Assembly (NCBI GenBank): GCA_022651005.1
Contig: JALCQD010000003.1
Location: 186,001 to 250,000, forward strand
Source: Bifidobacteriaceae bacterium
GTDB taxonomy: Bacteria > Actinomycetota > Actinomycetes > Actinomycetales > Bifidobacteriaceae
Direction: 5' to 3'
Length of the DNA stretch: 64,000 nt
Part shown: positions 2,034 through 41,984 of the stretch, piece after piece
How positions within the stretch are numbered: the first letter of the stretch is position 1
How the letters are laid out: each line of letters opens with the position of its first letter
Notes under the pieces: model-generated
Told to the model about the DNA's origin: nothing
The model's input: the letters and a program-made list of their open reading frames with translations, nothing else
The model's database searches: none
Position numbers and translations under genes: made by a program

Positions 2034-5000
2034 CTACTCCTGATTGCTGCGCTTGCGCACGCCCATCAAGGAGACGCCCGCCAGCGCGGACAGCAGCAGC
2101 ACCGCCACGATGGCTTCGACGCCTGCACCAGTCTTGGCAAGAACGGCCGTGGCGTGCTTTGCCGTAGCGACCGGTACCGGGGTCTCGGAAGGCGTGGTCG
2201 GCTGAGAGGTGATCGGCAGAGTGGTGACGGTGGTCGTCGACTCCGGCGTCGCAGGAGTCGACGGGGTCTTCGCCGGAGGTGTGATGCGGGACACGAACGT
2301 CGGAACATGCGTGTTCGTGATGTCGTAGCCCTTCACCGATGCCGTGTAGCCCTTCGCCACTGAATCTTCCTTGACGGTGTAGGCAATCTTCTTGCCGGCC
2401 GCAAACTCCGGGAGATCTGTGAAGGAGTACTTCCACCCGCTCTTCGCACTCACGTCAGCGGACTTCACGACCTTGCCGTCAGCGAGCAGATCAACAGTCA
2501 CGGAGTCGGGGCGAATGGCGTCGTGATTGTCGACGTCGTTCCAGATCTTCGTGCCGTTGACCGCAACGGTGGCAGGGACGTGGGTGTTGACGATGTCGTG
2601 CGTTGCGGCATCGATCTTCGCCGTATAGCCCTTCGCGATGTCGGTTTCCTTCACGGTGTACGCGATCGCCTTTCCTGCCTTGTACACCGGAACGTCCTTG
2701 AAGGAGTACTTCCACCCGTTCTTCGCAGTCGCATTGGCAGACTTCACAACCTCGCCGTCGGCCAGCAGCGAGATCGTGACGGAATCAGGGCGGATACCGT
2801 CCTGATTGTCGCCATCGGCCCAGCTCTTCGTGCCGGCAATGGTTGTCGTGGCCGCAACGTGCGTATTGGTGAGATTCAGACCGTCGGTAGTGGCTTCATA
2901 ACCCGCCACTGCCTCCTCCTCGACCGAGTAGGTGATCTTCTCACCAGCCGCGAACTCAGGCTTGTTGCTGAACTCATACTTCCAGTCCTTGGAAGCACCC
3001 GTCGAGACGGTATCGACCTTCATGCCGTTGGCCAGCAGATCGACAGTGATGGAATCGGGGCGGACGCCGTCCTGATTGTCACCATCGGCCCAGCTCTTTG
3101 CCCCAGCCAGGTTCAGCATCGAGGGCTCGTGCGTATTGGTGAGATTGTAGCCATCTGCAGCCGCGGTGTATCCGGCCGGAGTGGATGCCTCGCTCACTGT
3201 GTACGCAATCTTGGTGCCGTTCTTGTACACGGGCATATCCGCGAAGGAATACTTCCACGCGCCGTCGGTGTCTGCCGTAACGGCAGCGGTCTTGACAACC
3301 TCGCCGTCAGCCTTCAGCTCCACATCGATGGAATCGGGGCGCAGACCGTCTTGGTCGTCGGCATCAGCCCACGTCTTGGTACCAGAGATCGTAGCGGTCT
3401 CAGGAGTATACGAATTCGTGATGTCAAAGCCCTTGACTTCAGAGACGTAATCCGCAGAAGTCAGCTCGGCACTCTGCTCTTCCTCGACGGTGTACTCGAT
3501 CGGAGTTCCATGATTCTCGTACTTCGCAAGACCAGTGAAGGAGTAATCCCACACGTTCGCATCAGAAGACTCAGCGTCAGCAGCAGTCACGATAGCCGTC
3601 TTGCCGGTATCCTTACCATCGGCAAGCAACTTCACCGTCACAGACTTCGGACGAACACCATCCTGATCACCGTTATCAACCCACGTCTTGGTACCAGAAA
3701 CCGTAGTGGTCTCAGGAGTATACGAATTCGTGATGTTCATACCATCGGTTTTTGCAGTATAACCATTGGTAACAGCGGCTTCCTCAGCAGTGTAAACGAT
3801 GTCTTTACCGGCCTTCTTCTGAGGAAGGTTTGCAAATGAATACGTCCAGTTGCCATCGGCGTCGGGTGTCACCGTCGCCTCTTTGCCGTCAACTTTGGCA
3901 CCATTAGCATAGAGGTCTACAGTGATGGACTCAGGACGCTTACCGTCCTGATCATGGTTGTCGTTCCATGTCTTGGTACCCGTTTCGGTCACAACAGCGG
4001 GAACGTGGGTATTCGTCAGGTTGAGACCAGTGGCAGTCGGCTGATAGCCATCCACAGCCTCTTCCTCAACCGTATACACGATCTTCTGCTTAACTGCGCC
4101 CGCCTTGTACTCATCGAGCTTGCCGAAGGAGTACTCCCAGTTGCCATCGGTGTTCTCCGTGACGACTCTAGAATCTACCTTCACGCCGTCGGCCAACAGA
4201 TTCACGGTGATGGACGTCGGACGAATGCCATCCTGATTACTGGCATCATCCCACGTCTTCGACCCCGTCAGCTCTACCTGAGCTGGTACGTGGGTGTTCG
4301 TCACGTCCAGGCCCTGATAGGAAACGGTATAGCCTGCAGTCTTCAGTTCGTCGCTCTGCTCCTCTTCGACGGTGTATGTGACCTCGGTTCCCTTGTTCTC
4401 ATACTTGTCTTTGCCGGCGAAGGTGTACTTCCACACATTCGCGTTTGAGGGGTCGGCATCAGCGACAGTCAGAGTTTTGGAATCAACCTTCTGGCCATCG
4501 GCAAGAAGGTTCAGTGTCACGGAGTCGGGACGAACGCCATCTTGGTTGCTCGCATCAGCCCACGTCTTAGTACCAGAGATGTCTTCTTTTGCGGTCGTGT
4601 GAGTGTTGGTGATATCGAAGCCTTTGACTTCTGATGTGTACTTCGCAGAAGTCAGCTCGTCACTCTGCTCTTCCTCGACGGTGTACTCGATCGGTGTTCC
4701 ATGATTCTCGTACTTCGCAAGACCTGTGAAGGAGTAATCCCACTTATTCGCATCAGAAGACTCAGCATCAGCAGCAGTCACGATAGCCGTCTTGCCGGTA
4801 TCCTTACCATCGGCAAGCAACTTCACCGTCACAGACTTCGGACGAACACCATCCTGATCACCGTTATCAGCCCACGTCTTGGTACCAGAAACCGTAGTGG
4901 TCTCAGGAGCATACGAATTCGTGATGTCAAAGCCCTTGACCTCAGAGGTATACTTCGCAGAAGTCAAATCAGCACTCTGCTCCTCCGCGACGGTGTACGT

Positions 5001-8000
5001 GACTTCTTTGACCTCGGTACCCGTGTTCTCGTACTTTGCAAGGCCAGTGAAGGAGTAATCCCACTTATCCGCATCAGAAGACTCAGCGTCAGCAGCAGTC
5101 ACGATAGCCGTCTTGCCGGTATCCTTGCCATCAGCAAACAACTTCACAGTGATGGAATCAGGGCGCTTACCATCCTGATCACTGCTATCAGCCCACGTCT
5201 TAGTACCAGAAACCGTAGTGGTCGCAGGAGTATACGAATTCGTGACGTTAAGATCACCACCATCGGCATAACTCTTGTTGGAATATGTATCCGTATATCC
5301 TTCGGCCGGGCTCTCTTCCTTTACCGTGTAGTTGATGATCTTGCCAGACGCATTGAGCGCTGGGACGTCATCCGAGAACGTGTACTTCCAGCCCTTTGAC
5401 GCATCCGTGGTCTGTGTGTCGACGACTTTCTTGGAACCGTCCAGCAAATCGACTGTCACGGAATCAGGACGCTTACCATCCTGATTGTTGGCGTCATCCC
5501 ATATCTTCTTGCCGGCAAGCAGATAATACATGTCGGTGACGGTGGAATTGAAAGGCGCCAGATCACCCGAAGCGGCAGTTGTCGAAATGGCGCACTGTCT
5601 ATTCAGCTCATCGGCCGCCTTGGTGTCTGTCACTGGGATGTTAGCCGTGTATTCCACGCCCTCTTCGAGTGAAGGAACAACCATGATGAAGGACTTCACC
5701 GCAGACCAGCCACCGATGCTGCTGATGTTGTCAGCCTTGACGTAACCGTCAGTCGAAATGTCACTCGCCTTGGCGGGTGTCGCCTGTGTGGCGCTGGAGT
5801 ACAGCAGGTATGCATTGCCGGAGGAAACTGCCGCGCCATTGATGTCCGTGATGGAACCAGCGCCCGTGAGTTCAAGCGAGAGGCAGTCTGTCGGAAGGTT
5901 GGTGAGCGAGGAGAGTTCCTGGCCCGCCGCGCTCGGCTGATTGCTGACGACTGTAGCCTTCAGCGTGTGATCCGCGGTCTTAGAGAGAGCGTTAGCAGCG
6001 GCCGTCCCCTCTAAGCCTTGGTTGCTGACAATAGTTGAGAAACCGGAGAGTGACTGAACGGCAGTCAGCTGTAGATTCTGCGTAGCAGTGAGAACTGCCG
6101 CAGTGTCACCGCCGGTAGCACTCGTTGTCACATCCGCGGGAATTGTGGCAAACGGCGCTTTCTCATTATAAGGATTCCAGCTCAAATCGGGATCGTTAAC
6201 AGTCGACACCCAAATAGCCGAGGTGGATGTGATGGGGACGCCGAACTTTGGGATTGTCCATAATGCTTGAACAGCACCATCCACGTCCGTCGGTATATAG
6301 GCCTTCGTGCCTGTCCAGTCGAACTTCACCACAGTCTGGCCATTGCTGGCCTTGTAGGTGGTCACGTTGGCAGGATCATCCAGCGAGCTGTCAACGGTGT
6401 AGCCCGCATAATTCACGCCCGCGGGAATCATGACGTAGATAACCGGTTCATAAATTACATGTGTTGAATCGCCTGCCGGCAGCACACCGCCCCGCTCAGG
6501 CCGGCTGGCATGCTGATCCGTATTGCCATAAGCAAACGTGATGTTATGCCCCTCACCAGAGTTGCTACGCCATGGATTCCCCGTGGTACGCATAGTCCAG
6601 TCGGAAACCTTCAGGTTATTCAAATACGTGACGGTCAGGTCACCAGAGTACGAGATATCTCCGCTTGCGGTCGTTCCGCTGACGGTCTCAGTTGCCTTCC
6701 TGGAATCGCCGTCCTCGATATCCTTACCGCCTGTGTATGTTGCAAGGGATTGATCGCTGAGAGCAACTGTTCCAGTGCTTCCGGCATCCATCTCTGAATA
6801 CGTCACTGAAATCTTCGTATAAGGATTATCTTCAGTGGTATCTGGAATGGAATACGTCGCCGTACCCGCAGTCACGTCGGCCGCCGTGATCGTATAGGTG
6901 TAAGTCTTTGAGGTTCCATCCGCGGAATCTGCGACCACTGTAATGGTCTGCCCCTCAACGGGGTTGCTCTGAGTTACCTTCGCACCCAACTGTACAGAGC
7001 CGTCTGCGGGAGAAATCGTCTGATTGGCGTTCGTTATAGTCTGATGTCCGGCAGGATTCGTCAATTCCGGAGACTGAGTGTAAGTGATGGCAGTGCCGGG
7101 ACGCAGGCGATTCGACTCCGTCGCCACCGTCACGCTATTTTCTTCCTTGGAAAGCATCGCACCAGCCACCGGCGCCGCGAGCGTCACCGAGACGGGCTTG
7201 TCAGATGGGACAGTGGTCTTGTCTCCGTTGTAATCGAAGTAGCCACTGATGCTCGAGGTATTGGCTGCCGTGTAGGTCTGACCGTTGGCCGCCGTGAACT
7301 TGCCCTTAAAGGTCGTCCCAGCTCCAGAAACTGTGGGATCGTAATAGATCGTACCGCCCACGCCATCGGGTTGTGACCACCCCGGTGAGCCGGCTGCATT
7401 CAGCTCAAAATCAGCAGGCATGTTGAGCGTAACCCACGACCTCACACGGTACCATGCCGAATTATCCGCTCCAGCGACGTCATAGATATCTGGCGCCTTG
7501 AAGGAGTACTCCATGCCAGAGGAATACGTCGAGGGAGCGTCAACGAACGCTACTCTCCACGCCGTACCGGTGCCATAGGGATCAACATCCGTGGTAAAGG
7601 TGGCGTTGGCATCGTATTTCGAGCCATTCGCCGCGCGAGTGGCCTCGACCCCGAGCGTGTACGTTCCCAGCTGCATCCATGCGGAATTATTGAGACGGGA
7701 AACGAGCCCGTCGTACTCATACGAATCTATTTTTGGGGAAAGCACCACTGAAAACTTCAATGACGTTGCGCTCTTGAAGGTAAGGGTGAGCGTCCGAGGC
7801 GTTCCGCCTACCGAAGCGGTGAAGGACGGATCGCTAATCGAACCGAAGTTATCCCCGCCAACAAAACCTGTCGGCAAAGCAACCTTCAGAACGTCACCAA
7901 TCTGTGATTGGTAGTTGATGTCAATCGTGTCTGTATCGTCGGAGTTTGATCCGCCACCGACAATCGTCGGATTGCTCTGCGTGCTCGACAGCACACTCGC

Positions 8001-32124: not shown

Positions 32125-32445
32125 TTATTCCTTAGAATCATCAGAATCATCATCGCTGCCCACTACATCCGGACTCTCAAGTCCTGCTCTGAAAACTTCA
32201 CGCACGAAATTGGGAAATGGCGTACCGCTCTCACGTGCGCGCTTTTTTGCTTGTCGTACGTCACTCGCTGGCAACCGAACCGATACGGATACCATTGGTT
32301 CGTCGTAAACTCTCGGACGGCCAAACTGCTTGCGCGTGATGAGTGGCCCCGGAGTTCCATGATAAATTCCGTGTTCTGCATCATCAGCCCACTTATCAAG
32401 CATCTCATCAGTGATGACGACGCCATTCTCCCCTATATGATCCAT
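32125..32445 (-). CDS. Putative antitoxin with C-terminal ribbon-helix-helix-type domain
   Basis: This 106-residue acidic protein has a C-terminal half (VSVSVRLPASDVRQAKKRARE..PNFVREVFRAGL) that looks like a ribbon-helix-helix DNA-binding and dimerisation domain. The N-terminal half would contact the toxin. Its gene is second, overlapping the toxin gene by 38 nt, so the two are translationally coupled. The order toxin first, antitoxin second resembles BrnT-BrnA. The start at 32445 is an ATG after GGGAAGG; a TTG 9 codons upstream is possible. Confidence 0.72.
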   Translation of the reverse strand: MDHIGENGVVITDEMLDKWADDAEHGIYHGTPGPLITRKQFGRPRVYDEPMVSVSVRLPASDVRQAKKRARESGTPFPNFVREVFRAGLESPDVVGSDDDSDDSKE

Positions 32446-32752
32446 GGCCTTCCCTTCCCAATAGATAAGCAATTTCCCTGTAATCCAATCTCATCTCTTC
32501 CTCGAAACCTCGTGTGCATGCCATGGCGTGAAACACGAGATAGTACTTTTCTCCGGTCTCCTCGTCTAGGTCCAAGACAGCTATCATTTCAAGTACTCGC
32601 GCCGAAATATCAAAGCCAATTGCCGTGTACTGTGTTGGGTTCTTCCAAAATCTAGGCCGTAAATGTCTATAATGCAGCCACGCATACTCCACATCCGCCT
32701 TCGTTATTTCTGGGTGACGCCGCGGCACCCTGTCAGCTACTTCTACACGCAC
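32408..32752 (-). CDS. Putative type II toxin (BrnT/RelE-like small protein)
   Basis: This 114-residue protein starts at a GTG behind GGGAGGTG. The opening (VEVADRVPRRHPEITKADVEY) and the central strands (AIGFDISARVLEMIAVLDLD, KYYLVFHAMA) resemble a small toxin family paired with CopG/BrnA-like antitoxins in actinobacteria. The strand pattern is loosely that of BrnT. I infer an RNase toxin, but I see no proven active site. Together with the following antitoxin gene it forms a compact two-gene module that is lone in this otherwise housekeeping stretch. Confidence 0.6.
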   Translation of the reverse strand: MRVEVADRVPRRHPEITKADVEYAWLHYRHLRPRFWKNPTQYTAIGFDISARVLEMIAVLDLDEETGEKYYLVFHAMACTRGFEEEMRLDYREIAYLLGREGHGSYRGEWRRHH

Positions 32753-34829: not shown

Positions 34830-35702
34830 CTAAATCAGCCCGTATTTCACCTTCAGCCGCTCAAGCTTTTCCAGAAAAGGCTTTGCAAGGACGAAGAGGA
34901 AAAGGACTGTTGACAGCGCATGCACCAAATCCATGGGCGCTCCGGAAATATAGATGGCGGCAAGTGTTGTGGCGTTGATCTCGGAGGAGTACATCAGCAA
35001 TGACGCTGGATTCATGATGAGACCGTAAATGAAAAATATGCTGAGAAATCCATACACGCAGAGCCATCCGCGTTTGGCAGGCAGTACGTGAGTCCGATGC
35101 AATACTCCCGCTACGAATCCCACCAGGCCGAAGGCGATCATCTGCCACGCGGTCCACGGTCCTTGGCCAAAGAAAACGTTCGATACCAGCGCTGTTAAGG
35201 CTCCCACGATGAAGCCGGTCTCCTGCCCCAACGAAATACCACTGATGATGACAATGGCCGCCACCGGCTTGAATTGCGGAAGCATGAAGAACACGCTTCG
35301 CCCGGCCACTGCGAGCGCAATCAGAGTCGCGATCACCACAAGCTCGCGGGGATTGGGCCGCCGTGTATCGAAGAGAAACATGAACAGCGCAACGACGCAG
35401 GCAATCACAACGAGGCTGATTGCCAGAGCGTTGCGCGGTCCTAGCGCCATCTCACCGTATATGACGATTGGGAAGAGAAGTATGATGAGACCCGCCTCAG
35501 CGAGTGTCTGCCAGTGCCACCGGCCGCCGCGCCGAGACACCGGCGCACACCACACGAGCGGCGTCTGCAAAAAGGCGGAGGCTGTCAACTCGGTACGGAT
35601 TCGATCCGCAGGTTCCTCAGCCGTCTTTGCGGTGGTCTCCACAAGGGGTTCTGCGGGGGCACTCTCATATAACGACGTCACGAATTTGCGCGCGTCAGAC
35701 AT
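34830..35702 (-). CDS. ECF transporter S component, probably for a corrinoid
   Basis: This 290-residue membrane protein has about 80 N-terminal cytoplasmic residues, then six or more hydrophobic segments. The run GRSVFFMLPQFKPVAAIV, FFGQGPWTAWQM and NPASLLM is characteristic of an S component of the ECF_trnsprt type found with transcobalamin-like partners. S components bind the vitamin and give specificity to the shared EcfA/EcfT module. Ligand identity as cobalamin is inference from partners. The gene is last in the operon, overlapping the ATPase gene by 25 nt. Good GAGGTG Shine-Dalgarno. Confidence 0.82.
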   Translation of the reverse strand: MSDARKFVTSLYESAPAEPLVETTAKTAEEPADRIRTELTASAFLQTPLVWCAPVSRRGGRWHWQTLAEAGLIILLFPIVIYGEMALGPRNALAISLVVIACVVALFMFLFDTRRPNPRELVVIATLIALAVAGRSVFFMLPQFKPVAAIVIISGISLGQETGFIVGALTALVSNVFFGQGPWTAWQMIAFGLVGFVAGVLHRTHVLPAKRGWLCVYGFLSIFFIYGLIMNPASLLMYSSEINATTLAAIYISGAPMDLVHALSTVLFLFVLAKPFLEKLERLKVKYGLI

Positions 35703-37402
35703 GCGATCACCTCATCTTTTGTGATGGCGTCGGGGTAACGATCCCGCGCGATGCGGCTTGCACTCGTCGTATAGAAGTTGTTCGTCGAGAAGAAGGGATG
35801 CACCCTGTCTACGCTCACAACGTCACCGTTGAAGAACATGCCCGCTCTGTCTGCCGCACGAGCCGCAAACTCCACATCGTGCGTCACAAACACCGTGGTG
35901 ACTTTCTGCCTCTGCAATTCGTGGAAGATGTCGATCACCCGCTGTTTGGCTACTTCATCCATTCCCTTTGTGGGCTCGTCCAGCAAAAGAATTCGAGGAC
36001 GAAGCAGCAGAACCTTCAAGAGGGCCGCAAGTTGCTGCTCTCCACCGCTGAGATCGTATGGATGTCTCTCAAGCACGTGCATGAGTCCCAATGCTTCTGC
36101 ACCACGCTCGATGGATTCCTGGAGGCGGAGTTCATCGCGATCATCTTTGCGGCGCCTCCGTTTCGCCACGTCTTTCAAATCAGCGGCCACTGTTTTCTGT
36201 ACGAAAAGCGTCTGTGGATCCTGAGGAAGAACCCCCAGGAAGTTACGGTATAGCTCCCTAGGAGCGATGCGCTCAATGCGCGTGCCGCCAAGTTCGATAC
36301 GGCCGCGATAGGGGCTGTTAACCCCGCTCAGAAGCGACACCAGGGTGCTTTTCCCGCTGCCATTAGCCCCGACGAGCGCAAAAATCTCACCCTCGTGAAC
36401 ATGAAGATTCAGCCCCTTCACAAGGTCGGGAGAATTCTTGTCATATCTGAACCACACATCGCGTGCAGAGAGGGTAACGGGGGTCTCAGGGACCGTGACG
36501 CCTTCCCCTTTCGACGTCGTGCTCTGAGTCACACTCGTCGCCGTTCCGGCTGCAGTCTCCGCCACCGCTCCATCACCCCCGACGCTCTTCAGCCACCGCT
36601 TCCCCTCGCCCACGGTCAGCGGAATACGTGAGGCGGCACTGTGAGATTCCCAGTACAGCTGGGCAGCCACCGGCATGGCGGACGCGAGGCTCGGATTGTG
36701 TTTCAAAATGTCAGGAATGATATCCCTCGGAGCACCGGCCGCAGAAATCTTGCCTCCGGTGAGCACCACCATGGCGCTGGCGAAGGGCAGAATCTTCTGG
36801 ACCTCGTGTTCAGCGGCAAGGATCGTGACACCCAACTCGTAGTTGAGCCGATGAAGCATCTGGATGAAGTTGTCCGCGGAAATGGGGTCAAGTTGCGCTG
36901 TGGGTTCGTCAAGGATGAGGAGCTCTGGGTTGAGCACCATGACGCTGGCGAGATTCAGAATCTGCCGTTGGCCACCCGACAGCTCACTGACGTCCTTATC
37001 GAACCACTCTTCGATGCCAAAATACGTGGCAATCTCCGCCACCTTGCGGCGGATAACATCGTCGCCGAGCCCCTGATTTTCCAATCCGAAGGCAAGCTCG
37101 TGCCACACCTTATCTGTCACAATCTGGCTCTCCGGACGTTGCATCACAAAACCGATGCGGCTGGCCACAGCATCAGATGTTTCACGTGAAACATTTTTTC
37201 CTCGCCATAAAATCTCCCCTGTGCGGTCGCCATGTGCCGCGAGAACGGGGTGCAGTTGCTGAAGCAACGTTGTCTTACCTGACCCGTTGGGCCCCAGAAG
37301 GACGGTAAAACTCCCCTCCTCAATCGTCAGCGACACATTGCGCAAAATCTGCTGTGACCCCGGGAAAGCAAACGAAAAATCACGCATGGAAATCAACGCC
37401 AT
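35678..37402 (-). CDS. ECF transporter ATPase, two ABC domains in one chain
   Basis: Two ATP-binding cassettes are fused. The first (residues about 1-225) has LGPNGSGKTT, SELSGGQRQ and LILDEPTAQLD. The second (about 305-555) has VGANGSGKST, DLSGGEQQ and LLLDEPTKGMD. The fusion replaces the usual EcfA-EcfA' pair. It drives vitamin uptake with EcfT and the S component. It overlaps the T gene by 10 nt and the S gene by 25 nt. A perfect parS sits in the coding sequence at 37178-37193 and encodes VSRET, so this codon stretch is under dual constraint. Confidence 0.9.
   Translation of the reverse strand: MALISMRDFSFAFPGSQQILRNVSLTIEEGSFTVLLGPNGSGKTTLLQQLHPVLAAHGDRTGEILWRGKNVSRETSDAVASRIGFVMQRPESQIVTDKVWHELAFGLENQGLGDDVIRRKVAEIATYFGIEEWFDKDVSELSGGQRQILNLASVMVLNPELLILDEPTAQLDPISADNFIQMLHRLNYELGVTILAAEHEVQKILPFASAMVVLTGGKISAAGAPRDIIPDILKHNPSLASAMPVAAQLYWESHSAASRIPLTVGEGKRWLKSVGGDGAVAETAAGTATSVTQSTTSKGEGVTVPETPVTLSARDVWFRYDKNSPDLVKGLNLHVHEGEIFALVGANGSGKSTLVSLLSGVNSPYRGRIELGGTRIERIAPRELYRNFLGVLPQDPQTLFVQKTVAADLKDVAKRRRRKDDRDELRLQESIERGAEALGLMHVLERHPYDLSGGEQQLAALLKVLLLRPRILLLDEPTKGMDEVAKQRVIDIFHELQRQKVTTVFVTHDVEFAARAADRAGMFFNGDVVSVDRVHPFFSTNNFYTTSASRIARDRYPDAITKDEVIACLTRANS
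37178..37193. other. parS site inside the ECF ATPase gene
   Basis: A perfect 16-bp parS (TGTTTCACGTGAAACA), the ParB binding sequence conserved among bacteria, lies in frame inside the ECF ATPase coding region, about 11 kb from dnaA. It translates as VSRET. This is the most distant of the five parS sites in the window. Confidence 0.92.
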
Positions 37403-38421
37403 TGTGGCACCTTCTCCTTCTGCTTCTCTGCCGACACATCGTCGCTACCCAACACAACGCTCCACCGCGTCTGCCGTCGCGTGCCCGGACCCAAGCGCAA
37501 TGCCCTCTCATACCGTTTCCACAAATACACATCGAAAAGCCGCACCGCCACGGGAACATTGGCGAGCAAAAGGAACGCAACCGCCCCCAACCACGTCCAC
37601 ACACCGCTCGGTGCAGCGTGAATTCCACTGATCACAATCGTCGGATCATACTGGGCAGCAAGCCCCCCATTCGCCGTAGCCACAATGGTGATGCCCGCCA
37701 AGGACGCAATCACCACCAGCAACAGCACATTCCTTGTATCCCAGCGATGGGGAGAATACGAACTCCTATGACGCCTTCCGTAACCGCGCGCCCGCATGGA
37801 ATCGCTCACGTGAATCGCGTTCTCCATGGACCACGTAAAGAGCGAACTCGTCACAGTGAGCGCAATGCGAATCTTCTCCCACCATCGCGCGCTGCGCATG
37901 TCATGCCCAAGGTAACGCTGAGACACCGTCGTGTCATGAAACTGGCGCAGAAACAGCGGAATAAACCGAAAACTCATCGACAAAATCAGCGAGGCCGTGG
38001 GGAATACTCGCCCCACCGCATAGACGAACTTATCCCTGGTCAACACCACGTTCAACGACACGAACCACGCCGTCGCCACTGCCAGGGTTATAGCGAGCGC
38101 CACGCCATACACGATGGCCTCCAGCGTGATGGAATTCCCGTTGCTCAGGGTAAAAAGCAGCGTGACGCCGTTGTGGTTGAACGTGGGGTTGAGAATCGCG
38201 ACGACGATGATTCCGGGGACAATGAACACACCAAGAAGTCTTGCCATATGCCGCCACCCACGCACGAACGCACCATAGAGGATGGCCGACACGAGCGATA
38301 TACCAAGGACGAAAGGGTGCAGGCAGAACATGGAGATGCCGAGCACGGCCGCATAGAACGCAAAATTTACCGCAGGATGGGCAACGCTGAAAGAGTCACG
38401 AGAGCGTGCCATCCACCTCAC
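37393..38421 (-). CDS. ECF transporter transmembrane component (EcfT-like)
   Basis: This 342-residue protein has about five or six hydrophobic segments. Its coupling motifs include SFRFIPLFLRQF and the DSMRARGYGRR stretch, close to the A-R-G coupling motifs that bind the ATPases. It links the S component to the ATPases. It overlaps the ATPase gene by 10 nt. The C-terminal 60 residues are basic and probably cytoplasmic. Confidence 0.88.
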   Translation of the reverse strand: MRWMARSRDSFSVAHPAVNFAFYAAVLGISMFCLHPFVLGISLVSAILYGAFVRGWRHMARLLGVFIVPGIIVVAILNPTFNHNGVTLLFTLSNGNSITLEAIVYGVALAITLAVATAWFVSLNVVLTRDKFVYAVGRVFPTASLILSMSFRFIPLFLRQFHDTTVSQRYLGHDMRSARWWEKIRIALTVTSSLFTWSMENAIHVSDSMRARGYGRRHRSSYSPHRWDTRNVLLLVVIASLAGITIVATANGGLAAQYDPTIVISGIHAAPSGVWTWLGAVAFLLLANVPVAVRLFDVYLWKRYERALRLGPGTRRQTRWSVVLGSDDVSAEKQKEKVPQWR

Positions 38422-38472
38422 CCATCTTCCTACTGTTCTTTTGGAATCCAGCCTTACACGCTACCGGTTCAC

Positions 38473-39789
38473 TCAGTTACCGGACCAGCCGCCGCCAACA
38501 TCCGCACCTAACTCGCGCGTATACCGCCATTGGATCACGGAGCCGTCGCGGAGCGAGGAATAGCTTGAGGACCCGTAATTGGGGAACCACCCGTCGACGC
38601 TGTACATCCAGCCGGAAGCTGATCCTCCGTCGAACTCATAGAGTTGGTGGATTCCGGTGACGTAGTACGCGTTATACAACGGCGTCCAGCGCGACTCCAT
38701 CTGAATGTGGTGGCTCCTCGTCACCGCCACGAGCGCGTCATACGCCGTCTGCCCCTTCTTGAGCGTGATGCGCGTGGGTGAGAGAATCCATCCGCCAACG
38801 GGCACGTAGGCGCGTTTGCTGGCCTTCACGTCGCTCATGTGCGATACCAAAGTTTTCGCGTCAATGGATACCGTGACAGAGATTGAGTTGCTGTCCGCCT
38901 TTTTCGCGGAGCCAGTACCTGATGATTGCGAACCTCGGGAGGCCGCTGCTCCGGAGCTATCACTGCCAGCAGCGGAACTACCGTTATTCGCGGCGGATGA
39001 GGTTCCGTTAGCATTGCCGTTTGGGCTCTGTGCAGTGCTGGAGCCAGCCTCGTCCTTTGCAGAATCTGTGCCACTGTCGCCGCCTGTGCTCGCTCCGGTT
39101 CCCGCGCCGCCGTCTGCATCGCCGTCCGTGTCGCCGCTCGTAGCCGAGGAAGCGCCATCATTCGACCCAGAGTTCCTCGCGTCTGAGGAGAGGCCGGCTT
39201 TATTGAGACCCGCGATGAAGTACAGCACCTTATGCGTCACCGTCACAGTGCCAGTAAGCGTCGTTTTCTTGCCAGCAGTAACGATAGAGGGATGGGCGCT
39301 AGATATTTGCTTCAATGAGCCCTTCTGCTCGGTTGCCACCACTACGCGATTCGCTGCCCATTTTTGTGGAACCGTAATCTTCAGCTTCGGGCTTCCCGCA
39401 AGCTCAAAATTCGCTATTTTTGCGGAGATGGCATAGGGAGCCTTGTTGGCGACCTTTTTGACGGACGACACCTCTGATCCGCTCGTTGCAAAAGTGACCT
39501 TGAGATGTTGATCAGTCGGATTTTTTACCTGGGCGGCATCGTACAGCCACGAATACGTAATATCGCCGTCACGGCCAGTAAAGGCGTACGTTCCGGTTTT
39601 ACCATCCAGTGTCTTCAACTGGTCTTTTGTAATGATGCCACTTGCAGGCAACTGCGTCATCTTTTCCAGAGGTTCCGCCGCAGATGCCTGTGCGCCGCAG
39701 CCTGCCATTGTGACGGCAGTCGTCACGGCCAGCACTCCGGCCACTATTACCGAGGTAACGCGACGGAGAAATGCGTACTTACTGTCCAT
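38473..39789 (-). CDS. DUF4430 lipoprotein (transcobalamin C-terminal-like domain)
   Basis: A lipoprotein signal is seen: hydrophobic core followed by VTMAGC, with the lipid-accepting Cys about residue 30. The middle is a long Ser/Gly/Ala/Asp-rich disordered stretch. The last 140 residues match the DUF4430 domain, with ITLKKGQTAYDAL, GIHQLYEFDGGSASGWMY and GWFPNYG. In animals this domain is the small C-terminal domain of intrinsic factor and transcobalamin. It should sit on the outer face of the membrane. Start: ATG at 39789 after the overlapping upstream stop, with AGAGGG at reasonable spacing; GTG at 39795 is the alternative. Confidence 0.85.
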   Translation of the reverse strand: MDSKYAFLRRVTSVIVAGVLAVTTAVTMAGCGAQASAAEPLEKMTQLPASGIITKDQLKTLDGKTGTYAFTGRDGDITYSWLYDAAQVKNPTDQHLKVTFATSGSEVSSVKKVANKAPYAISAKIANFELAGSPKLKITVPQKWAANRVVVATEQKGSLKQISSAHPSIVTAGKKTTLTGTVTVTHKVLYFIAGLNKAGLSSDARNSGSNDGASSATSGDTDGDADGGAGTGASTGGDSGTDSAKDEAGSSTAQSPNGNANGTSSAANNGSSAAGSDSSGAAASRGSQSSGTGSAKKADSNSISVTVSIDAKTLVSHMSDVKASKRAYVPVGGWILSPTRITLKKGQTAYDALVAVTRSHHIQMESRWTPLYNAYYVTGIHQLYEFDGGSASGWMYSVDGWFPNYGSSSYSSLRDGSVIQWRYTRELGADVGGGWSGN

Positions 39790-39791
39790 GA

Positions 39792-41753
39792 TCACTCGCC
39801 CTCTGTTTCACGGGAACGTGCCGAATGCGCAGCAGCGGAGGAGCGGCGTCCCCATACGATACCGCCTCCAACTCCCCCGACGAGAAGGAGGGCCGCCGCA
39901 ACAGCAATGGCTGCGATGGTGGGGGCTCCCGAGATAGCCTCCCCGGGAGCACTTGCTGATGTCAACGCCGCTGCTGCTTTTTTGGGCGAAGGCGACTCAT
40001 ATTCACCAGCGCTGAAACTCCATCCGTCAGGATCGGAAGTCTTCTTGGCGGAATCGTCAGATGATGAGGCTGCTTTCTGATCCCCAAATGCGGTAGATCC
40101 GCCTGCCGAACTCGACACAGATACAACTGCGCGTTGCACTATGCGGTACGTCGCTGGCTCGGACACAACCGAGGAGATAGGTGGCGACGCGGCATGACGC
40201 GAAGAAGTTTTTGTACTGGCGTGGGTGGATCGGGTACTCCCTGCGTTCTGCTCCGAAGAGGTTCCCTCGGCAGATTCCTCAGCAGATTCCCTAGCAGATT
40301 CCTCGGTCGACTTCACTGACGCGGCACCGGACGAGGACGGCTCAGCGATCCCTGACATTCCCTCGGAACCCGCAATGGCAGTATTCGTCACTGCCGAAGA
40401 TACAGCCCGCGTATAGCCGCTATTTTCCTTGACAACGAGATCGAAACCACTATTGATGCCCGTAGCGGGGGTCACTGAAGCAGGAGTCGCTGTGCCGTCA
40501 GTTGCGGACCCCGCGGTTCCCGGGGCGGACGTAGTGGAGCCTGACTGCTGCTGAGAGCCTGACGCGGCGCTACCGTCCTTACTGGCCTGCTGTTCCGCCC
40601 TGGCAGCTGCCTCATCCGCAGCCTTCTGAGCGGCAGCTGCCCATACTGCCTCTTGCGCCTTCTTGACCCCGGCATCTCCCAGAGTCACGTCGCTCATGTT
40701 GTACAGGCTCTTTCGTCCAGTCATCTGACGCTGATAGGCGATTGTCGCGTAATAGCATTGTTCAGTCGCCATGCCGTTGGCATCTTTCTGACCGGCAAGA
40801 TACTTATAACCACTGCCGGCCACGTGGTAAGACAACATATTTTCGATCACACTGTGACCGTTCTTCACAAACCGCGGGTCAGTTGGAGACACGTTGAGAG
40901 CCGCCATGGCCGTGACGACCTGAGCCTGTGAATTCGAATTGGGATCGCCCTCGCCACCGAACCCAAGGCTTCTGTACTCTCCGTTGGACCCTTGCCGAGC
41001 ACTCAGCATAGTGAGAGCTTTGTCAATCGCCGCGGAAACTTTTGCGTTCACGTCATAAGCGCTTCCCTTGAAGGGAGCAAGCGCCTGAAGCGCCATGGAG
41101 GTAATATCAACGTCCCCCTTCGTGCCATAAAGCGCCCAGCCGCCGTCGGGAGTGTTTTTGCTCAGCAAGTAATCGATGAGCCCGGGGATGGTGGTGGCAG
41201 CAGAACCGTCAGAAGGAGTGAGGAAGGTGTAGCTTGGGTTCGCCTCAACTGCGAGGAGTGCGAAGATGACACCATTAATGCCCTGGTAAGAGACGTTGTC
41301 CCGCGTCGAGAGGTAATCGAAAAGGTTATATCCAGCGATTGATGTGGCGTCATACCCCATTGCGGTGAGGGCGAGAATGATGCGTTCATAGTCCGTTGAC
41401 ACCTGGCGTCCAGGTGTAGAACCGTCATTGGCCTTCAACGAGGCCACCGCCTCATTTTTGTATTGCGTAAAGAGAGGGCTCTCACCGGAAGTGACGTCCC
41501 GCGCCAAGGAAAGGAGCATCCACTCACTGCTTGTTCCATAAAGGGGAGTATTTGACGTTGCATAGTTCGTGAACTGATTGAGAACATACGAGCGGGTATC
41601 CCTGACCGCGGATTCCACGGTGGACTGTTCGAGATAACTTTGCCCGGCCGCCTGCGCTGGCGTGGTACCCACCATGCTCAGAGAGAGCACCATCACCACA
41701 GCCGACATACATGCGATAAGTGCATTCGCACTCCATGACCTGACGCGCTTCAT
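39792..41753 (-). CDS. Transcobalamin/intrinsic-factor-like alpha-alpha barrel surface protein
   Basis: This 653-residue protein starts with a signal peptide (cleavage near AQA). Residues about 30-340 are helix-rich and match the prenyltransferase/squalene-cyclase-like alpha6-alpha6 barrel that is the large domain of intrinsic factor and transcobalamin. Repeated motifs include PDGGWALYG, DVDITSMALQALAPF and NSNSQAQVVTAMAALN. A Ser/Ala-rich linker of about 230 residues and a C-terminal transmembrane segment with a basic end (GRRSS) anchor it. I infer that it captures a corrinoid and passes it to the DUF4430 lipoprotein and the ECF transporter. Start at 41753 is supported by AAGGGGAA 7 nt upstream; the longer reading to 41798 has no Shine-Dalgarno. 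Confidence 0.82.
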   Translation of the reverse strand: MKRVRSWSANALIACMSAVVMVLSLSMVGTTPAQAAGQSYLEQSTVESAVRDTRSYVLNQFTNYATSNTPLYGTSSEWMLLSLARDVTSGESPLFTQYKNEAVASLKANDGSTPGRQVSTDYERIILALTAMGYDATSIAGYNLFDYLSTRDNVSYQGINGVIFALLAVEANPSYTFLTPSDGSAATTIPGLIDYLLSKNTPDGGWALYGTKGDVDITSMALQALAPFKGSAYDVNAKVSAAIDKALTMLSARQGSNGEYRSLGFGGEGDPNSNSQAQVVTAMAALNVSPTDPRFVKNGHSVIENMLSYHVAGSGYKYLAGQKDANGMATEQCYYATIAYQRQMTGRKSLYNMSDVTLGDAGVKKAQEAVWAAAAQKAADEAAARAEQQASKDGSAASGSQQQSGSTTSAPGTAGSATDGTATPASVTPATGINSGFDLVVKENSGYTRAVSSAVTNTAIAGSEGMSGIAEPSSSGAASVKSTEESARESAEESAEGTSSEQNAGSTRSTHASTKTSSRHAASPPISSVVSEPATYRIVQRAVVSVSSSAGGSTAFGDQKAASSSDDSAKKTSDPDGWSFSAGEYESPSPKKAAAALTSASAPGEAISGAPTIAAIAVAAALLLVGGVGGGIVWGRRSSAAAHSARSRETEGE

Positions 41754-41942: not shown

Positions 41943-41984
41943 GAGGAGGGGTTGATGTTTCACGTGAAACATCAACCCCTCCTC
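41943..41984. other. parS in a 42-bp perfect palindrome after parB
   Basis: The parS core (41956-41971) is extended on both sides to a 42-bp perfect palindrome whose outer arms are GAGGAGGGGTTGA and its complement. It starts 27 bp after the parB stop, so the RNA could fold into a long hairpin and end the par operon; a short pyrimidine-rich stretch follows on the minus strand. It therefore looks like a combined parS and terminator. Confidence 0.85.

Follow-up and report, generated by a model that had tools for sequence, protein, structure and literature searches.

Can a Gram-positive cell capture vitamin B12 at its surface with a two-gene counterpart of the animal B12 carriers and hand it directly to an importer? 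This question is raised by five minus-strand genes in a 64,000-nt stretch of a Bifidobacteriaceae genome (assembly GCA_022651005.1, contig JALCQD010000003.1, forward strand, 186,001 to 250,000), called here the window; all coordinates given below are window-based. The genes occupy positions 34830-41753 and encode a toroid protein, a DUF4430 lipoprotein, EcfT, a fused double EcfA and an S component, with the following features:

39792..41753, minus strand: alpha/alpha toroid surface protein, 653 aa from the ATG at 41753 (sequence; orthologues in L033 and L034)
40623..41645, minus strand: toroid (alpha/alpha barrel) domain as modelled (AlphaFold2, Foldseek, squalene-cyclase profile matches)
39855..39920, minus strand: predicted C-terminal membrane anchor of the toroid protein (by eye from the sequence)
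38473..39795, minus strand: DUF4430 lipoprotein, 440 aa (Pfam, sequence)
38518..38754, minus strand: DUF4430 / transcobalamin-like SLBB domain (PF14478, 6.7e-12, 46.1 bits, cut-off 23.8)
37393..38421, minus strand: EcfT transmembrane subunit, 342 aa (PF02361, CbiQ/EcfT, 8.5e-9)
35678..37402, minus strand: EcfA-EcfA' fused double ATPase, 574 aa (two ABC_tran stretches, 2.6e-60; TIGR04520)
34830..35702, minus strand: CbrT-like S component, 290 aa (PF07155, 6.5e-9; PDB 6fnp)

The original prediction had described five consecutive minus-strand genes with short overlaps and one 51-bp gap, and this layout was confirmed. As calculated from the coordinates, the toroid and DUF4430 genes overlap by 4 bp (39792-39795), a 51 bp gap separates the DUF4430 and EcfT genes, and the EcfT/EcfA and EcfA/S junctions overlap by 10 bp and 25 bp, respectively, all of which is consistent with a single operon. 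The gene identities assigned earlier also stand, by Pfam for the DUF4430 protein, EcfT, the double ATPase and the S component, and by model and homologues for the toroid protein. Two further members of the genus (L033 and L034, which match the public MAGs Bifidobacteriaceae bacterium UW_DM_BIF2_1 and UW_DM_BIF4_1) have identical gene content and order. The same five-gene order was also seen in one MAG of the Ruminococcaceae, in MAGs of the Clostridiales and in Lacticaseibacillus pantheris, and, inside the phylum itself, in several genomes from a different class. As the five genes recur in the same order in other genomes, the operon is not a chance arrangement. Of the 21 toroid loci covered by at least 10 kb of sequence, 16 also contain an S component (p ~3e-25 under a crude null model with 2 S-like genes in every 2.5 Mb). 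The operon is real and conserved.

EcfT, two ATPase domains and an S component are encoded together here, which is the arrangement of a group I ECF transporter with a dedicated module. The fused EcfA scored 321.8 bits against TIGR04520, over the cut-off. For the S component, the only significant match in the PDB was CbrT of Lactobacillus delbrueckii (6fnp, 6.9e-11, residues 119-288), which has been proven to transport cobalamin and cobinamide (PMC5997447). The two proteins differ in length (290 aa in the window vs. 182 aa in 6fnp), with about 118 extra N-terminal residues and further hydrophobic segments in the window protein. Unlike ECF-CbrT, the window system has its own ECF module in the operon and two additional extracellular proteins. 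An N-terminal extension is also present on the S components of homologues with the toroid operon.

Both the ECF-CbrT host and the genome studied here carry an adenosylcobalamin (AdoCbl)-dependent reductase and an adenosyltransferase, PduO in L. delbrueckii (PMC5997447). In the window's genome we found an AdoCbl-dependent ribonucleoside-triphosphate reductase (RTPR; TIGR02505, 750 bits; 1l1l, E=0) and, approximately 240 bp downstream of it, a cobalamin adenosyltransferase, on the same contig as the operon and at another locus. Genome-wide statements refer to single-family searches of a 95.6% complete assembly. In these, a class III reductase was present, while searches for a class I reductase, MetH and mutase-type B12 enzymes (PF02310) and CobS gave no match. 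Apart from the class III enzyme, which is anaerobic, the sole reductase found in the host organism requires B12. Two adjacent, siderophore importer-like FecCD permease genes in the genome leave open a second corrinoid route, and this counts against our reading of the operon.

Across 37 genomes of the family, adenosyltransferase and RTPR occur together in nine, every one of which also encodes the S component; in a tenth S-bearing genome, 76% complete, the S component was the only one of the three. Thus the S component is accompanied by adenosyltransferase or RTPR in 9 of 10 S-bearing genomes vs. 0 of 27 lacking it (Fisher 8e-8), with G030, whose S match is weaker and partial and which carries a class I-like reductase, left out of the S count. 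RTPR, S component and adenosyltransferase lie inside about 6 kb in seven family genomes, matching the nrdJ-cbrS-cbrT-pduO cluster of L. delbrueckii (PMC5997447). Class I-like reductases are encoded in many genomes of the family, and nine others carry the AdoCbl-dependent RTPR instead. Two nearly complete, RTPR-bearing genomes (G012, G014) are also without a class III reductase, which would make their DNA synthesis B12-dependent.

Ahead of the window's own operon, no cobalamin riboswitch was detected even at lax thresholds, a point that also counts against our reading. Outside the family, operons of the toroid/DUF4430/ECF type are preceded by cobalamin/AdoCbl riboswitches, located 89-503 bp ahead of the first operon gene in eight loci (L091, L092, L093, L098, L100, L101, L112, L116); the distance is 29 bp in L102, and in L104 the riboswitch lies 1006 bp from the DUF4430 gene that follows it. 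The L112 operon is followed downstream by CobT, and the L102 operon is flanked by a divergent adenosyltransferase. Four independent lines, namely the CbrT match, the RTPR/adenosyltransferase co-occurrence in the family, the relatives' riboswitches and the CobT/adenosyltransferase neighbours, point to a corrinoid as the probable substrate, in support of what had been proposed from the window sequence.

Other gene arrangements were seen at such riboswitches. In L098 (1948-4494) and L101 (15379-17988) the first gene after the riboswitch encodes a product of approximately 850-870 aa, carrying PQQ/beta-propeller repeats in L098. In L095 (8450-10544) and L097 (8389-10478) a toroid gene lies directly at a cobalamin riboswitch, with no S component or DUF4430 detected; in L095 the next gene codes for about 260 aa and has no Pfam match.

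The toroid protein is read from the ATG at 41753, after AAGGGGAACGT, in agreement with the end coordinate given originally; a reading from an upstream GTG gives 668 aa. As read from the sequence, the protein comprises a signal peptide, the toroid domain, a long Ser/Ala-rich stalk and a C-terminal membrane anchor, the last placed by eye at approximately residues 627-648 of the 668-aa reading, with basic residues after the membrane helix. The AlphaFold2 model of the domain (pLDDT 85.6, pTM 0.87) is an alpha/alpha toroid, so that the predicted structure, together with Foldseek, bears out the barrel fold proposed for this protein. Foldseek ranked protein prenyltransferases and terpene cyclases ahead of transcobalamin (2bb6, TM 0.50; 2v3n, TM 0.54, the best transcobalamin value), bovine transcobalamin being among the PDB fold matches. 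Because enzymes top the list and the fold is common to many enzymes, the toroid fold alone does not single out transcobalamin. By sequence, the window protein alone matched no Pfam family above cut-off. Homologues were found in L106, L108 and L110-L116, and in profile comparisons toroid homologues match squalene-cyclase/prenyltransferase toroid families; the toroid profile gave no match to PF01122 or to the PDB transcobalamins, its resemblance being to squalene cyclases and prenyltransferases. Of the comparison with transcobalamin, the shared fold was retained, but a detectable sequence match of the toroid was not found.

The second surface protein has a lipobox, MAGC, whose cysteine is residue 33. 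This lipobox and the signal peptide and C-terminal anchor of the toroid protein suggest that both are exposed at the cell surface, as had been predicted. The DUF4430 family is the one to which the C-terminal domain of transcobalamin belongs (PMC4350170; PMC1796856). Neither the proteins taken singly nor alignments of the toroid and DUF4430 proteins reached transcobalamin in PDB sequence searches; the link therefore rests on the Pfam DUF4430 assignment, the literature and the fold. In transcobalamin, one B12 molecule is sandwiched by the toroid and SLBB domains, both of which contact the cobalamin (PMC1796856). Cleaved intrinsic factor (IF30 + IF20) retains tight cobalamin binding (PMC6257451), and a carrier encoded by two genes is therefore physically plausible.

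Separate toroid and DUF4430 genes are a common arrangement among the relatives found, and L112 carries two DUF4430 genes. In L111, L113 and L115, both domains are part of a single protein, with both domain orders occurring. The L115 product (4462-6681) is secreted and has the toroid followed by DUF4430 (PF14478, 2.9e-11), which is the domain order of transcobalamin; in the model of this fused protein the DUF4430 part has a pLDDT of about 30. Beyond DUF4430 this protein has SLH-like anchor repeats (by eye), its gene lies 118 bp downstream of a cobalamin riboswitch, and no ECF genes were detected around it within a 15 kb stretch. The toroid can also be joined to the transporter: S component and toroid form one open reading frame in L102 (9199-11043), L104 (9158-11053), L088 (1459-3024) and L089 (1126-3021), and the gene order in L098 and L101 is DUF4430-EcfT-EcfA-S-toroid. 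The S-toroid fusions argue for direct hand-over, and both kinds of fusion support, at the level of sequence, joint working of the domains.

Taken with the data on the substrate, we consider it highly probable that the operon serves capture and import of a corrinoid (vitamin B12) by the pair of surface proteins and the ECF transporter. In the mechanism proposed, the membrane-anchored toroid protein and the DUF4430 lipoprotein would sit on the outer face of the membrane and jointly clasp one corrinoid, like the alpha and beta domains of transcobalamin and intrinsic factor. The corrinoid released by the pair would enter the CbrT-type S component, with uptake powered by EcfT and the fused double ATPase; inside the cell, the adenosyltransferase would produce adenosylcobalamin for RTPR. 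We infer the joint binding by the two window proteins and the hand-over to the S component, and equally the supply of RTPR by the operon. As a rule, ECF transporters are described as operating without extracellular substrate-binding proteins. We lean slightly towards the idea that the locus encodes an ECF importer with dedicated binding proteins of this kind, in which a two-piece transcobalamin-like clasp docks on the N-terminally extended CbrT-type S component.

A corrinoid could also be imported without the surface proteins sharing one ligand: only one of them would be a binder, and the other would tether it to the wall, dock it on the S component or bind another corrinoid form. The solitary riboswitch-controlled toroid genes of L095 and L097, in which no DUF4430 or S component was detected, fit such a division of labour, as do the paired DUF4430 genes of L112 and the operons with a second paralogous SLBB protein noted by Burroughs et al. 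(PMC1796856). We nevertheless regard it as a possible but rather unlikely arrangement, given that the two domains are kept together in most operons and fused in L111, L113 and L115, and that both transcobalamin domains contact the cobalamin (PMC1796856).

Two further rival readings concern the ligand of the transporter and the nature of the toroid protein. It is very unlikely that the transporter carries riboflavin, folate, heme or cobalt. In Pfam and NCBIfam, the S component matches riboflavin and folate families, and a heme ECF transporter is known from Staphylococcus lugdunensis (PMC7299338); however, CbrT is the only significant PDB match, and adenosyltransferase and RTPR co-occur with the S component family-wide, with cobalamin riboswitches on the relatives' operons. 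A riboflavin or folate specificity drawn from Pfam/NCBIfam was dropped, these being weak superfamily matches (folT, 26.8 bits, cut-off 60). Least probable in our view is that the toroid protein is a cell-surface enzyme, terpene cyclase- or prenyltransferase-like, which is in the operon by chance. Squalene-hopene cyclase and prenyltransferases are indeed its top sequence and fold matches, but the toroid is secreted and anchored, is tied to cobalamin riboswitches and B12 transporters across phyla, and is fused to DUF4430 and to S components in relatives. Capture of a corrinoid by the surface pair remains the preferred reading.

The concept itself goes back to earlier work. For Gram-positive bacteria, Burroughs et al. 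(2007, Biol Direct 2:4, PMC1796856) described a transcobalamin-like SLBB clade, noting alpha/alpha toroids fused at either end, the presence of signal peptides and of wall anchors, and operons that also encode a CbiO-like ATPase and CbiQ-like proteins. They predicted B12 scavenging and proposed that the toroid-SLBB combination had passed from Gram-positive bacteria to animals. The window operon is a member of the kind predicted there, having a DUF4430/SLBB surface protein, a toroid, EcfA (CbiO-like) and EcfT (CbiQ-like) in a single operon. It differs in that toroid and SLBB are on two genes and that the CbrT-type S component, riboswitches ahead of related operons and a cofactor-using enzyme are identified. 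The bacterial two-gene counterpart of the animal carrier proposed for this locus therefore holds as to the separate toroid and DUF4430 genes, but its novelty was overstated, as B12 scavenging had been predicted in 2007 (PMC1796856). New here are the CbrT-type S component, the S-toroid fusions, the support from riboswitches and RTPR, the two-gene form in the genus and the apparent lateral acquisition. Open-licence PubMed Central papers yielded no experimental study testing the surface pair.

Like the animal proteins transcobalamin, intrinsic factor and haptocorrin, the window pair combines an alpha/alpha toroid with a small DUF4430 domain (PMC4350170, PMC6257451). In contrast to them, it consists of two separate anchored proteins, the toroid has no detectable sequence match to the animal proteins, and the pair would feed a membrane transporter, whereas the animal carriers serve an endocytic receptor. 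BtuG and BtuH of Bacteroidetes (PMC8941943) are likewise additional B12-binding surface proteins alongside a transporter, but their setting is that of Bacteroidetes transport loci; a BtuH homologue lies near an ECF-like transporter in Eubacterium siraeum (PMC8941943). The B12 transport systems of many gut genomes have been described as an open problem (PMC6593275), and the mechanism proposed here, if true, would explain B12 capture at the cell surface of Gram-positive bacteria. As a small bacterial counterpart of the animal B12 carriers, the operon lends itself to testing, its halves lying on separate genes beside the transporter they would feed, and it makes the 2007 proposal that intrinsic factor and transcobalamin derive from Gram-positive surface proteins directly testable.

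In the family, only the window's genus yielded matches for toroid and DUF4430. A tree built from 25 S components places the genus with L. pantheris and Clostridia (100/99), apart from other Bifidobacteriaceae S components, and the toroid shares 51% identity with the L. pantheris protein vs. 43-44% within the genus. From these sequence comparisons, it appears that the native transporter adjoining RTPR/adenosyltransferase was lost and the five-gene operon was gained from Bacillota, the direction of transfer being inferred and the sampling of donors thin. In the L. pantheris locus (L106, 9833-15690), the toroid, DUF4430 and EcfA genes are each broken into consecutive open reading frames, reflecting frameshifts due to gene decay or to errors in the assembly.

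Between parB and the operon lies one further feature:

41943..41984, minus strand: terminator-like hairpin of 19 pairs, containing a parS palindrome

Five perfect parS palindromes (TGTTTCACGTGAAACA) were located near parA/parB, at positions 37178, 41956, 42936, 44248 and 55855 of the window, one of them within the fused EcfA gene and one within the hairpin just upstream of the operon. L033 and L034 contain four matches each to the inner 14 bp of the palindrome. At 32125-32752 of the window, two small overlapping minus-strand genes resemble a toxin-antitoxin pair of the BrnT/BrnA type.
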